Origin: Nitrospirota bacterium
GTDB taxonomy: Bacteria > JACPQY01
Direction: 5' to 3'
NCBI GenBank assembly: GCA_016180645.1
Contig: JACPAV010000062.1
Location: 1 to 5,758 of the forward strand
Length of the DNA stretch: 5,758 nucleotides
Shown here: one piece after another, positions 236-5,758 of the stretch
Numbering within the stretch: position 1 is the first letter of the stretch
Layout of the letters: each line of letters opens with the position of its first letter
Notes under the pieces: model-generated
What the model was told of the DNA's origin: nothing
Databases searched by the model: none
Seen by the model: only the letters and a program-made list of their open reading frames with translations
Program-made: the position numbers and the translations under genes

Positions 236-2422
236 ATGCAAGAGAAGCGGCCCTGGGCAACCTACTTTTTGGCGGTCCGTAGAGGTCTGCGGAGCGGCCG
301 CCTAGATTTGCCTGAAGCGACTAGTTCATTCGGGCGCGCGCTCCTGTCGGCAGGCCTCGCCGCCGCGTCGCTCCTTTCAGCCTGCCAACCCGTATCTCCT
401 CTGCTGGTCCGCGAGGCGCCTCCCGCCTTTTTTTCCGACGAAGCCGATGCCTACGCGGAAGCCCGCTGGCGAAGCCTTGAGCTGCGGAAAAATATCGACG
501 AGCTGGCAAAGGCGACGTCTCGCGAGCCGCCGTCAGATGCGCTTCAAAGGCTTGGGCTCTACAGGCGCGAATACTTTTCTCTGCGTGAAATTCTCTTCAG
601 CGGGGCAATGCTCCATGCCTCGGCTATCGTGGAGAGAGCTGAAGGGCAAGACCTCGGGACTCTCCTATTGAGATCCAGCTTGGCGCTTGTGGCGGGCACG
701 ACGCTACTGCAAAACTCCCACGCCGTCGCGGCCTTGCTGCGCGACCATCCGGCCCTGCGGGCCGCGTGGAACGAGCCTGATCCCGAATATGGAATCCCGA
801 AGGACAGTTGGGAACTCTCGCTGCAAACCTACAGCACAAGCCACCATCAAGATCTCTTCAGGGCGGCCATCGAGAGACTGAAGGGCCGCCGAGGAGATTT
901 GGAGAGGCATCTCAAGGCCAACGACAGGATTTTTTTCGCCCTGTATCCCGACGGAATCGAGTCGGCCCTGCAAGAGGCGGAGGAGACCTACACGTTGCTG
1001 CGGGCGGGCTTCGCCTCAGAGGATTTGGCTCAGGATGAGGCGGAGGTGCGCCTCCTGGTCGAGCGATCCAAGAAACTGCGCAATGAGTGGGCCGCGTCCG
1101 CTCCTCTTCTACGCCAGGCCATCATGCGGGACGGCGGACTGATCCGAGGAAACGTTCATGTCCGCGTGCACGCCGCGAAACGGGACTATCTGGACCTGCG
1201 CGAAGCCCTGTATCGCCTGGCCTTCAAACACGTCGCCAAGCTCACTCGCGAGGACATCCCCTACCCGCGACCGTTTCGACTTCGCGCCGTCGGAATTTCC
1301 CTTTTAGCCGCCGTGACTCTCTACGAGAACGCCCGCCGGTTACAAACCTCTCTTCTTAGCATCCCCGGGGTCAAGGCCCTGCTCAACCAGGGGGACCCGG
1401 CCCTGGGTATTCCGCGAGGCTTCTGGGACAACATCGAGACGGAATTCACCAGGCTTCAATACAGGCGCCTCCTGGAGACGGGGATTCAAGCGGTAGACGA
1501 AGCGCGACATCTGCCTTCGGGTCCGGCGGAAACACAACCTTTCTTTGCCTATCTGGCTGCGGAAATCGCGACAAGCACCGCCATCCCGGAAATCCGCGGC
1601 GAAGGGATTCTCCCGAAGCTCGTCCGGGCGCTGCAGAGTTATTCGGGGCTGGTACAAAAGATGAGTTCTGGAATTCTCGGAATTGCCGCGTCTCCGTTGT
1701 TCACAGGGGTAGGGAGTCTCGCCGGCATCGAGCTCAGAAAAGGAAAACTGTTCGACCAACCTCAATGGGCGGAATTCGTCAAGGAGAGGCTGCGACCCGG
1801 AGATCTCCTGCTGGAAAAAAGTCCTTTTAGGCTATCCAACAAGTTCATCCCCGGACACTTTGGACATGTAGCCCTGTATGTCGGCACAGCAGCGGAGCTG
1901 AAGGCCCTCGATCTCCTCCAACAGCCTTGGGTAGCGAAGTATGTGAAGCAGGTTGGTGAAAGAAAAACCATCGTAGAGGCGCTCCCGGGCGGAACCCGGC
2001 TCAGTACTATCGAGGACTTTCTCAACACCGACGATCTCGCCATCATCCGGCCCAAGAGCGACAAAATTCCGCCTGCGGACGTGGCGAGAGCGATCACCCT
2101 GGCCTTCTCCCACATCGGCAAGCAGTATGACTTTTCTTTCGATAACAACACGTGGGACGCCATCGTCTGTTCCGAACTCGCGTTCCACACCTACGTGAAC
2201 GTCCGCTGGCCTTTCGCAAAAATACTCAGCTCCTACACCATCTCCCCCGACGACGTGGCCGTCGTCGCCGGCTCGGACCCGGCGCGGCCCTTTGAGCTGA
2301 TTACATTCGTCCACGACGGCCAAGTCGTGCACGACCGAGCGACCGGACTGCTCGATGAGCCAAAGTACATCGACCTCTTGGGCAAACGCTATGACGAAGC
2401 CGGGTACTTTGCGGCGCGATGA
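236..2422 (+). CDS. Predicted lipoprotein with duplicated helical region and C-terminal YiiX-like permuted papain (NlpC/P60-type) cysteine hydrolase domain
   Basis: Numbering is from the ATG at 236 (728 residues). A signal-peptide-like stretch ALLSAGLAAASLLSAC ends in a lipobox, LLSAC, with Cys50 as the predicted lipidated residue. A mostly helical region follows (about 65-460) and includes two related ~106-residue copies (111-216 and 316-421). The last ~210 residues are a YiiX/YaeF-type permuted papain-like domain: PGDLLLEK (521-528), the His motif GHFGHVALYVG (540-550, likely catalytic His544), VEALPGG with probable acid Glu581, then CSEL with nucleophile Cys645, and a YTISPDDVA tail (667-675). 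The order His, Glu, Cys is the circularly permuted arrangement of this superfamily, whose members act as amidases, peptidases or acyltransferases. The substrate here is unknown. The protein should be anchored by lipid and face the periplasm or cell surface. The frame is open back to a TTG at 176, but that TTG is the start of a TTGACA promoter box. TTG at 308 would give the most typical signal peptide (25 residues before Cys). Neither start has a strong ribosome binding site. The stop overlaps the next gene. Confidence 0.85.
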   Translation: MQEKRPWATYFLAVRRGLRSGRLDLPEATSSFGRALLSAGLAAASLLSACQPVSPLLVREAPPAFFSDEADAYAEARWRSLELRKNIDELAKATSREPPSDALQRLGLYRREYFSLREILFSGAMLHASAIVERAEGQDLGTLLLRSSLALVAGTTLLQNSHAVAALLRDHPALRAAWNEPDPEYGIPKDSWELSLQTYSTSHHQDLFRAAIERLKGRRGDLERHLKANDRIFFALYPDGIESALQEAEETYTLLRAGFASEDLAQDEAEVRLLVERSKKLRNEWAASAPLLRQAIMRDGGLIRGNVHVRVHAAKRDYLDLREALYRLAFKHVAKLTREDIPYPRPFRLRAVGISLLAAVTLYENARRLQTSLLSIPGVKALLNQGDPALGIPRGFWDNIETEFTRLQYRRLLETGIQAVDEARHLPSGPAETQPFFAYLAAEIATSTAIPEIRGEGILPKLVRALQSYSGLVQKMSSGILGIAASPLFTGVGSLAGIELRKGKLFDQPQWAEFVKERLRPGDLLLEKSPFRLSNKFIPGHFGHVALYVGTAAELKALDLLQQPWVAKYVKQVGERKTIVEALPGGTRLSTIEDFLNTDDLAIIRPKSDKIPPADVARAITLAFSHIGKQYDFSFDNNTWDAIVCSELAFHTYVNVRWPFAKILSSYTISPDDVAVVAGSDPARPFELITFVHDGQVVHDRATGLLDEPKYIDLLGKRYDEAGYFAAR
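566..883 (+). repeat. Internal duplication in the lipoprotein, copy 1 (protein level)
   Basis: This encodes residues 111-216 of the lipoprotein (start at 236). It aligns without gaps to residues 316-421 at a fixed offset of 205 residues. Landmarks are REYFSLRE (111-118), a hydrophobic helix with L.A..TL..N, and DPEYGIPKDSW (182-192). By-eye identity between copies is about 25%, so the repeat is old and is not visible as DNA identity. Confidence 0.6.
1181..1498 (+). repeat. Internal duplication in the lipoprotein, copy 2 (protein level)
   Basis: This encodes residues 316-421 of the lipoprotein. Landmarks matching copy 1 are RDYLDLRE (316-323), LLAAVTLYEN in the hydrophobic helix, and DPALGIPRGFW (387-397). 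A linker of about 100 residues, rich in charged helix, separates the copies (217-315). Confidence 0.6.
2419..2422 (+). promoter_or_regulatory. ATGA start/stop overlap (translational coupling site)
   Basis: The TGA stop of the lipoprotein gene (2420-2422) shares bases with the ATG of the LplT-Aas fusion (2419-2421). There is no clear Shine-Dalgarno sequence in the preceding 20 bases. Translation of the second gene therefore probably depends on ribosomes finishing the first. A later in-frame ATG at 2446 is an alternative start, also without a good ribosome binding site. Confidence 0.65.
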
Positions 2423-5400
2423 CTCGAGACGACAAGTTCTCATTTATGCCCGTAGGTAAATACAGCGGCACGCTCGGATATCCCGGGTTCAAAGCGCTCC
2501 TCGCCACCCAGTTCTTAAGCGCCTTCAACGATAACGTCTACAGGATGGTGCTCTCATTGATCGCCTCCGGCGCCACCGGCGGCGGGGCCAGCGCCCTTGC
2601 CCTGGTCGGCGCCGTCTTTATTCTCCCTTCTTTGCTGTTCTCGGGCTATGCGGGACATGCGGCCGACGTCTGCAGCAAGCGAACCGTTATCGTCGTCACC
2701 AAGGCGGTCGAGGTGGCCGGCATGGGGTTGGCGCTCCTGGCCCTTTTCTCTCAAAGGCTCGAGCTTATGCTCCCGGTTCTGTTCCTATTGGCTCTCAATT
2801 CTGCCTTTTTCAGCCCGGCTAAATACGGCATCGTGCCGGAGATGCTCGCCGATAAGGATCTTTCCCGGGCCAACGGGCTTCTGGAGATGAGCACCTTCCT
2901 GGCCATCATTCTAGGGACTTCGTTGGGCGGCCTCATATTCGCCAGTTGGAGGGACCGGCCGGAGCTCATCGGCGTTCTACTCCTTGCGATCTCGCTGGCG
3001 GGGGCTCTTGCGAGCCTGAGGATCACCAAGGTCGCTGGTTCCGGGGTCATAAAACCGTTTCGACTTAATCCCTGGGCTGAGATCGGGCAGGGGATCGGAC
3101 GGTTGTACGGGGACAGGAGCCTGTGGCTGACGGTCATAGGCATCTCCTATTTTTGGTTTCTGGGCGCCCTGCTCCAGATGGATATTATCCTCTTTGGCAA
3201 AGAGGTGATGGGGCTGGATGACTTGCGAATCGGCTTTCTCCTCACCTTTCTTGCCGCGGGGATCGGGCTCGGCAGCCTTTTAGCCGGACGTTTATCTGGC
3301 GACAAGGTGGAGTTGGGGCTGGTGCCTCTAGGTTCCATCGGCATGGGGATATTCTCCCTTCTCTTGTCGAACTCCGCCGAATCCTACGGGCAGGCAGCCG
3401 CGGCGCTCGCCATGCTCGGGTTGGCGGGCGGCCTGTTCGTCGTCCCGTTAAACGCCTTCCTTCAACAGAGGAGCGGGCGCGAGGAGAAAGGCCGGCTAAT
3501 CGCAACCAACAATTTTCTCAATACGGGCGGGATTCTTCTCGCCTCCGGGCTGCTCTGGGCATTCCGCGACTGGCTGGAGGTGCCGGCGGACCGGGTCATA
3601 TTCATCTGCGGTCTCTTCACGCTCACAGCAACGGCCTATGTACTCAGCCTTCTGCCCGACTTTCTCATTCGATTCACGCTCTGGATGTTTACCCACACGA
3701 TCTACAGAATCCGGCTCGTGGGCCAGGAGCATGTCCCTTTCCGCGGGGCTGCGCTGCTTGTGTGCAATCACGTCTCCCATGTCGACGGCTTGCTCGTGGG
3801 AGCCTGTGTCCAGAGATTCATCCGGTTCATGGTCTACCGGCCTTACTACGAGCTGAAACCGCTCCATTGGCTTTTTCGCCTGATGAAAGCAATCCCGGTT
3901 TCGGGCAGGAGCCGAAAAGACATTATCGAGTCGTTGGAGCGCGCCCGCGAGGAGCTCCGCCAGGGTCACGTCGTCTGCATCTTTGCCGAGGGGGCGATCA
4001 GCCGGACCGGCAACCTGCTCCCGTTCAAACGGGGGTTCGAGAGAATCGTAGAAGGCATGGACGTGCCTGTGATCCCGGTGCATCTCGACCGGCTTTGGGG
4101 CAGCATCTTCAGCTTCAAAGACGGGCGCTTCTTCTGGAAGTGGCCCGAGCGTCTCCCCTATCCGGTCACGGTTACCTTCGGCGCCCCTTTGCCATCCAAG
4201 GCGACGGCGGAGGAAGTCCGACAGGCGGTTATCGAGCTGGGGTGCGAGGCGGTGAAGATCCGCCGGACGCCGCGGGACTTGCTTTCCGCGCGGTTTTTGA
4301 GGAGCGCCAAGCGGCGTTGGTTTTTGTTCTGCATGGCCGACTCCACCGGCAGGGAACTGACTTACGGCAAGGCGCTCACCATCAGCCTGCTCCTCGCGCA
4401 GTGGTTGCGAAAAAACGGCGGCGGTGAACGCATGGTGGGGCTCCTTCTACCCGCCTCGATCGCGGGGGCCCTGGCCAATATCGCTTTGCTCCTCGCCGGC
4501 AAGATCCCGGTCAACCTCAACTTTACGGCAGGGAGCGAAGCCATATCCTCGGCGATTAATCAGTGCAGGATCGAAACCATCCTGGCCTCGCGGACGTTTC
4601 TGGCCCGCGCCAAAATCGAAGAAAGGGAAGGGATGGTTTTCCTTGAAGACGTGATGAAACAAATGACGCCGTCGGCAAAAGTATCGACCGCCCTCCTGGC
4701 GTTCTTCCTTCCGTGCAGGGTGCTTGAAGCCATCTACTACCGCGGGGAGTGGAACCCCGACAGCCTTGCCACGGTCATCTTCTCCAGCGGGAGCACCGGC
4801 GTACCTAAAGGGGTCATGCTCTCCCATCACAACATCCTCTCCAATATCGAAGGGATCGCCCAGCTCTTTTGGGTGACGTCAAGAGACCGGGTGATGGGGG
4901 TGCTGCCGTTTTTCCACTCTTTCGGCTTCACCGGCACGCTATGGTTTCCGCTCCTATCCGGTTTCGGCGTCGTCTATCATGCCAACCCCATGGACGCCAA
5001 GACCATCGGCGAAACGGTATCGACGCGCAAAGCCACCATCTTGATCAGCACGCCTACCTTCTACGGGGCGTATCTAAAGAGGTGCCCCGCGGAACAGTTC
5101 TCCAGCCTCCGTTATGCTATCGCAGGAGCTGAGAAGGTCCCCGACTCGCTGGCAAGGGCGTTTAAAGAAAAGTATGGGTTGGATCTCCTGGAAGGCTACG
5201 GATGCACGGAGATGGCTCCTGTGATCTCGGTCAACATACCGGACGTAACCCACGGTCGGGAGCGGCAGACCGGCTTCAAGCCTCACACGGCGGGCCATCC
5301 CCTGCCCGGCGTGGCCGTGAAGGCCGTGGACCCCACCACCTGGGAAACGATCCCGCCGGGACAGGAAGGGCTCCTCCTGGTCAAGGGTCCCAATCGTATG

Positions 5401-5758
5401 GTCGGCTACTACGGCCAGCCCGAAAAGACCCAAGAGGTCGTTCGCGACGGGTGGTACGTCACAGGAGATATCGCCTCAATTGACGAAGATGGATTTATCC
5501 GTGTCACGGACCGCCTTTCCAGGTTCAGCAAGATCGGAGGCGAGATGGTTCCCCATATCAAGGTGGAAGAGGCGATGAATCAGATCGTGGGAGATCAGGC
5601 CTGCGTGATCACCGCGGTCCCTGATGAACAGAAGGGCGAACGCCTCGTGGCTTTTTATATTCGGAACGATATCACGCCGGGGGAGCTTTGGGAAAAGTTA
5701 AACCGCACGGACCTTCCCAAGCTTTGGATCCCTAAGCGAGAGAACATCTTCTCCGTCG
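2419..5758 (+). CDS. aas: LplT-like MFS transporter / glycerophospholipid acyltransferase / acyl-ACP synthetase fusion (LplT-Aas), C-terminus cut by window edge
   Basis: The frame is open for 1113 codons with no stop and continues past the window. Residues about 15-415 are an MFS transporter with some 12 hydrophobic segments. It starts with the TQFLSAFNDNVYR helix and has a motif-A-like GHAADVCSKR loop (79-88), as in LplT lysophospholipid flippases. Residues about 430-620 are a PlsC/Aas acyltransferase with NHVSHVD (HX4D, His451 and Asp456), IPVSGRS (492-498), FAEGAISRTG (522-531) and VIPV (551-554). Residues about 630 onward are an ANL adenylating domain with P-loop SSGSTGVPKG (789-798), GYGCTE (926-931), GWYVTGD (1011-1017) and the hinge RFSKIGGEMV (1035-1044). 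By analogy with LplT and Aas, it moves lysophospholipids to the cytoplasmic face, charges ACP with a fatty acid and re-acylates the lysolipid. E. coli LplT (~397 residues) plus Aas (~719) sum to nearly the same length, so perhaps 20-40 residues are missing. These include the A10 catalytic Lys (GSGK region), which cannot be checked. The start overlaps the upstream stop. Confidence 0.93.
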   Translation, partial: MTRDDKFSFMPVGKYSGTLGYPGFKALLATQFLSAFNDNVYRMVLSLIASGATGGGASALALVGAVFILPSLLFSGYAGHAADVCSKRTVIVVTKAVEVAGMGLALLALFSQRLELMLPVLFLLALNSAFFSPAKYGIVPEMLADKDLSRANGLLEMSTFLAIILGTSLGGLIFASWRDRPELIGVLLLAISLAGALASLRITKVAGSGVIKPFRLNPWAEIGQGIGRLYGDRSLWLTVIGISYFWFLGALLQMDIILFGKEVMGLDDLRIGFLLTFLAAGIGLGSLLAGRLSGDKVELGLVPLGSIGMGIFSLLLSNSAESYGQAAAALAMLGLAGGLFVVPLNAFLQQRSGREEKGRLIATNNFLNTGGILLASGLLWAFRDWLEVPADRVIFICGLFTLTATAYVLSLLPDFLIRFTLWMFTHTIYRIRLVGQEHVPFRGAALLVCNHVSHVDGLLVGACVQRFIRFMVYRPYYELKPLHWLFRLMKAIPVSGRSRKDIIESLERAREELRQGHVVCIFAEGAISRTGNLLPFKRGFERIVEGMDVPVIPVHLDRLWGSIFSFKDGRFFWKWPERLPYPVTVTFGAPLPSKATAEEVRQAVIELGCEAVKIRRTPRDLLSARFLRSAKRRWFLFCMADSTGRELTYGKALTISLLLAQWLRKNGGGERMVGLLLPASIAGALANIALLLAGKIPVNLNFTAGSEAISSAINQCRIETILASRTFLARAKIEEREGMVFLEDVMKQMTPSAKVSTALLAFFLPCRVLEAIYYRGEWNPDSLATVIFSSGSTGVPKGVMLSHHNILSNIEGIAQLFWVTSRDRVMGVLPFFHSFGFTGTLWFPLLSGFGVVYHANPMDAKTIGETVSTRKATILISTPTFYGAYLKRCPAEQFSSLRYAIAGAEKVPDSLARAFKEKYGLDLLEGYGCTEMAPVISVNIPDVTHGRERQTGFKPHTAGHPLPGVAVKAVDPTTWETIPPGQEGLLLVKGPNRMVGYYGQPEKTQEVVRDGWYVTGDIASIDEDGFIRVTDRLSRFSKIGGEMVPHIKVEEAMNQIVGDQACVITAVPDEQKGERLVAFYIRNDITPGELWEKLNRTDLPKLWIPKRENIFSV

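Follow-up and report, generated by a model that had tools for sequence, protein, structure and literature searches.

Several permuted NlpC/P60 proteins have been connected with acyl chains. YiiX was found with a fatty acid bound at its catalytic Cys, and the hydrophobic S1 pockets of permuted members were judged unsuitable for peptides (PMC3142127). Lipoprotein N-acylation requires LnsA (PMC7387801), DUF4105 has been identified as Lnb, a lipoprotein N-acyltransferase, and Tox-Act1 converts PE and PG to lysophospholipids (PMC12994826). On the recycling side, acyl transfer from PE by Lnt leaves lyso-PE, which is recycled by LplT-Aas; fusions of LplT and Aas are stated in the same source to be biochemically uncharacterised (PMC11416262).

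Here we describe a locus in which a gene of the first kind (ORF1) immediately precedes a gene of the second (ORF2). The window, meaning the whole 5,758-bp stretch of DNA that was analysed, is one entire contig of a 4.7-Mb genome assembled in 65 contigs. It contains the following features:

236..2422, + strand: ORF1 (728 aa), predicted to be a lipoprotein; a duplicated helical domain precedes a C-terminal Peptidase_C92 (permuted NlpC/P60) domain
236..385, + strand: signal peptide and lipobox LSAC (Cys50), read from the sequence; L002, the closest homologue, also has the Cys-Gln pair and a hydrophobic stretch
560..940, + strand: helical domain copy 1, about aa 109-235, from the shuffle test and a profile match at 7e-13
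1157..1648, + strand: second copy of the helical domain, about aa 308-471, the one that single-copy relatives also have; mostly helix, AlphaFold2 pLDDT about 50-82
1790..2263, + strand: Peptidase_C92 core with H544, E581, Y631 and C645 (codons at 1865, 1976, 2126 and 2168)
2419..2422, + strand: ATGA, 4 nt in which the stop of ORF1 overlaps the start of ORF2, read from the sequence
2419..5757, + strand: ORF2, an LplT (MFS), acyltransferase and AMP-binding fusion (LplT-Aas, PRK08633), its end lost at the contig edge

The tetranucleotide profile of the contig correlates with that of the remainder of the genome at 0.75, a value matched or undercut by about 7% of the genome's own windows and reached by 11% of foreign windows. 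The genome was represented by 20 of its stretches. As this composition lies at the low edge of the genome's own range, the binning of the contig is not certain. Neither ORF1 nor the LplT-Aas fusion gene was found in one other genome of the same family, which is 84% complete. On the minus strand at positions 1-122, MDLTWLQVPQWKKADGLLHGFLGRRGGKSGGPYASLN resembles by eye the beginning of a pgeF/YfiH gene (peptidoglycan editing factor) running divergently from ORF1; a Pfam search with its 40-residue fragment gave no match, and the pgeF assignment is a by-eye reading. Upstream of ORF1, at 176-205, we noted a TTGACA box and a weak -10 element, GAGAAT (10/12, spacer 18), one such arrangement being found against a chance expectation of 0.6.

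ORF1, a C92 protein with two helical domains

ORF1 was read from ATG236 to the TGA stop at 2420-2422. Its start codon is uncertain, since ATG236 gives an unusually long n-region and there are two other in-frame candidates, TTG269 and TTG308. A hydrophobic signal is followed by the lipobox L47-S48-A49-C50, with Q at +2. The closest homologue, L002, which comes from a Rokubacteria bin and is 51% identical across 662 residues, has LVACQ at the corresponding place, so that the Cys-Gln pair and the preceding hydrophobic stretch are kept. The protein is thus a predicted lipoprotein, probably periplasmic in location.

Focusing on the C-terminal part, Pfam identified Peptidase_C92 (PF05708) at aa 519-676 with an E-value of 5e-21 and a score of 75.9 bits, compared with a curated cut-off of 27. 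Residues H544, E581 and C645 are joined by the fourth catalytic position, Y631, and all four are invariant across seven homologues from diverse genomes. A profile generated from those seven homologues retrieved YiiX (PDB 2IF6) at 6e-7, with Y631 and C645 aligned with the YDF and CSE motifs. The original prediction of a lipoprotein with an intact permuted His/Glu/Cys set was therefore borne out on both counts, with the Tyr as an additional member of the set. Overall similarity to YiiX is weak: ORF1 scored 16.5 bits against the YiiX equivalog NF007458, well below its cut-off of 216. The Pfam scan of ORF1, carried to E=1, yielded C92 only and no match to the DUF4105 (Lnb) profile, and a search of viral contigs returned no further ORF1 homologues.

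The residues between the signal and the catalytic domain carry a tandem duplication, at about 100-235 and 308-471. Aligning residues 61-285 with 286-500 gave a score of 117, whereas 500 shuffles gave a mean of 33 and a maximum of 54; the same duplication in L002 scored 126 against a shuffle maximum of 57. A helical-domain profile likewise matched ORF1 and L002 twice each, whereas none of eight other relatives gave more than one convincing match. Because this profile was made partly from copy 2 of ORF1 and L002, the shuffle test provides the independent evidence. The Pfam scan gave no name to the helical domain, which may serve as a scaffold or as a membrane- or partner-binding part. In a full-length AlphaFold2 model, built with one homologue, residues 67-480 are mostly helix with block-mean pLDDT of about 50-89, and this helical part is usable. 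The C92 part is not: its pLDDT was mostly below 50 in the full-length model and averaged 41.7 when the domain was folded alone, making the C92 models unusable for inspecting the pocket. Searching the PDB by Foldseek with the full ORF1 model gave matches to long helices only, none at E<=0.001.

ORF1 belongs to an already known kind of enzyme, C92, and judged by its sequence it is a variant of those family members of 450-540 residues that have a single helical domain. We know of no activity for C92 proteins with this helical architecture and, more broadly, of no established substrate for most bacterial C92 (YiiX-type) proteins.

ORF2 and the pairing of the two genes

The downstream gene had been identified as an LplT-Aas fusion, and this identification is sound: ORF2 scored 1324.5 bits against family NF006386, passing the equivalog cut-off of 1221, and the LplT, acyltransferase and AMP-binding domains all lie within this single reading frame. 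Its sequence contains the acyltransferase motif HVSHVD (HX4D) and the adenylation motif SSGSTGVPKG. It ends at residue 1113 of about 1,140 because the contig stops there. From these features ORF2 is classed as an ordinary LplT-Aas fusion, predicted to flip lysophospholipids inward and re-acylate them. The two genes had also been called translationally coupled. The ATGA overlap is present in the DNA, but coupling itself is only suggested by it, because ATG2419 has no clear Shine-Dalgarno sequence upstream and ATG2446 is an alternative start.

This arrangement raised the possibility, central to the original prediction, of a dedicated two-gene envelope deacylation/re-acylation cycle. ORF1 would make or process a lysophospholipid, ORF2 would import and repair it, and coupling would balance both activities. 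Apart from the overlap, such a cycle draws support from the generation of lysolipid by a permuted relative, Tox-Act1, and from the repair by LplT-Aas of lyso-PE arising from Lnt, PagP and phospholipases.

We surveyed the gene neighbourhoods of both partners. The NF006386 search covered a diverse set of 290 genomes as well as 45 genomes from a single fusion-rich phylum, and neighbourhoods were fetched for 43 loci; these included 26 other long fusion ORFs, of which 21 are preceded by 1 kb of sequence or more. None of these 21 fusions had a C92 gene nearby. A C92 profile that recovers known C92 proteins matched none of 1,647 flanking ORFs, and the Pfam C92 model, applied to 30 of the genomes, found a C92 gene adjoining a fusion only in the genome studied here. 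The nearest other case was a C92 gene 17 kb from an unfused Aas (genome G129). No conserved partner was seen 5' of the fusions, whose neighbours vary (prephenate dehydrogenase, PLP enzymes, VWA, MarR and TetR proteins).

The reciprocal view gave the same picture. LplT-Aas was absent from the fetched flanks of ORF1 relatives in all 12 genomes inspected, some on short contigs, and the helical-C92 genes had no common neighbour among the loci scanned. The gene for L002 lies between unrelated genes, by eye hflK/hflC-like genes on one side and a PIN-domain-like gene on the other. No complete LplT-Aas fusion was found in its genome, G002, which gave partial matches resembling separate ligases or acyltransferases. 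The idea of a conserved C92/LplT-Aas pair thus failed in this survey: within the searched genomes the pairing is confined to a single lineage, the outcome that the original prediction had named as refuting it, and the ORF1-ORF2 operon is lineage-specific and one-off. Since no other genome searched showed this gene order, a dedicated lipid-turnover module is improbable. On its own, one operon from an incomplete genome shows little.

Co-occurrence of C92 and LplT-Aas genes across genomes

Adjacency and co-occurrence gave different results. In the 290-genome sample, leaving our own genome aside, the Pfam model found C92 in 7 of 16 fusion-bearing genomes and in 16 of the other 273 (Fisher 5.7e-5, kinship ignored). 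Stratifying Lnt-positive genomes by size, and leaving out our own genome and one of two genomes of the same genus, C92 and a fusion occurred together in 6 genomes where 2.0 were expected (p=0.0025, kinship ignored). Canonical NlpC/P60, used as a specificity control, showed no association with fusions (6/17 vs 123/273, p=0.46). These numbers are small, two of the genomes (G232 and G369) are of the same family, the counted C92 proteins differ in architecture, and the hypothesis arose from the same data. The co-occurrence may stem from shared ancestry, and it is a lead, not proof. Should the association survive once ancestry is corrected for, it would connect C92 enzymes with lysophospholipid metabolism and offer a concrete assay.

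For the two-gene cycle, then, co-occurrence across genomes is an argument in favour, yet about half of the fusion-bearing genomes lack a C92 gene. The host also has Lnt (full-length match, 6e-98), a sufficient source of lysophospholipid, so ORF1 is not required for lysolipid supply. Combined with a pairing confined to this locus and a closest homologue in a genome where no complete fusion was found, these results leave the cycle unlikely. That ORF1 feeds ORF2 specifically is possible, although not the likeliest reading. We are more doubtful of the fuller proposal, in which ORF1 would act in the periplasm as a dedicated acyl-hydrolase or acyltransferase of phospholipids and hand its lysolipid product to a co-translated LplT-Aas in a self-contained lipid-remodelling operon, with C92 as a recurrent, mostly unlinked partner of LplT-Aas.

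The presence of Lnt rules out ORF1 as an Lnt replacement in this genome. A separate observation concerns a 6.1-Mb genome, G215, where an LplT-Aas fusion is accompanied by three C92 matches but Lnt gave no match at 1e-10; a C92 protein there might substitute for Lnt, as LnsA and Lnb do elsewhere.

Predicted chemistry and comparison with described enzymes

Weighing these lines of evidence, we suggest, with somewhat better than even confidence, that Cys645 of ORF1 reacts with an envelope lipid or acyl-amide to form an acyl-thioester. His544 and Glu581 would activate Cys645 for attack on the ester or amide of a fatty-acyl group, Tyr631 would help to keep the carbonyl of the substrate in place, and the resulting acyl-thioester would then be hydrolysed or its acyl group passed on. 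Candidate substrates are phospholipid, lysolipid and lipoprotein acyl-amide, which as envelope lipids would be likelier than peptidoglycan. ORF2 would act on lysophospholipids as described above, by inward flipping and then re-acylation. Of the original prediction, the acyl chemistry is plausible from the literature on YiiX, LnsA, Lnb and Tox-Act1; the two-gene cycle built upon it is not supported, the pairing having been found only here. More generally, it is plausible that C92 proteins fit the description of acyl-chain enzymes better than that of peptidoglycan peptidases.

The older assumption for NlpC/P60 proteins would make ORF1 a peptidoglycan or peptide hydrolase that is co-transcribed with ORF2 by chance. 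It is consistent with superfamily membership and with the possible divergent pgeF start at 1-122. Furthermore, our genome has no canonical NlpC/P60 match at 1e-10, which might leave a wall role unfilled. Against it, the hydrophobic S1 pockets of permuted members were considered ill-suited to peptides (PMC3142127), and the permuted members that have been characterised act on lipids (PMC12994826). We therefore regard a hydrolase of this kind as a doubtful alternative to acyl-thioester formation. Least probable is an LnsA/Lnb-like lipoprotein N-acyltransferase or deacylase with a phospholipid donor, its lyso by-product recycled by ORF2: LnsA and DUF4105/Lnb are themselves permuted NlpC/P60 proteins, and G215 combines fusion and C92 genes with no Lnt match, but full Lnt is present both in our genome and in G002 and Pfam assigns ORF1 to C92 and not to DUF4105.

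Both genes can be compared with described proteins. The LplT-Aas gene is a typical PRK08633/NF006386 fusion, distinguished only by the preceding C92 gene and the end cut off by the contig. LnsA of S. aureus, Lnb/DUF4105 of Bacteroides and the Salmonella T6SS protein Tox-Act1 are, like ORF1, permuted NlpC/P60 proteins, for which the moving or removal of acyl chains has been shown or inferred; they form sequence clades separate from ORF1, whose acyl activity is predicted. Closer in architecture are the helical-C92 proteins L023, L063, L067 and L068 (about 450-540 aa), in which one helical domain is followed by C92 with the same catalytic residues, whereas ORF1 and the Rokubacteria protein L002 have two helical copies. 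The YiiX/YaeF family (PF05708; E. coli YiiX, PDB 2IF6) shares with ORF1 the permuted NlpC/P60 core and its H, E, Y, C order. YiiX-type proteins are about 200 aa in length, and ORF1 has about 450 residues more, with the duplicated helical domain and a lipobox.
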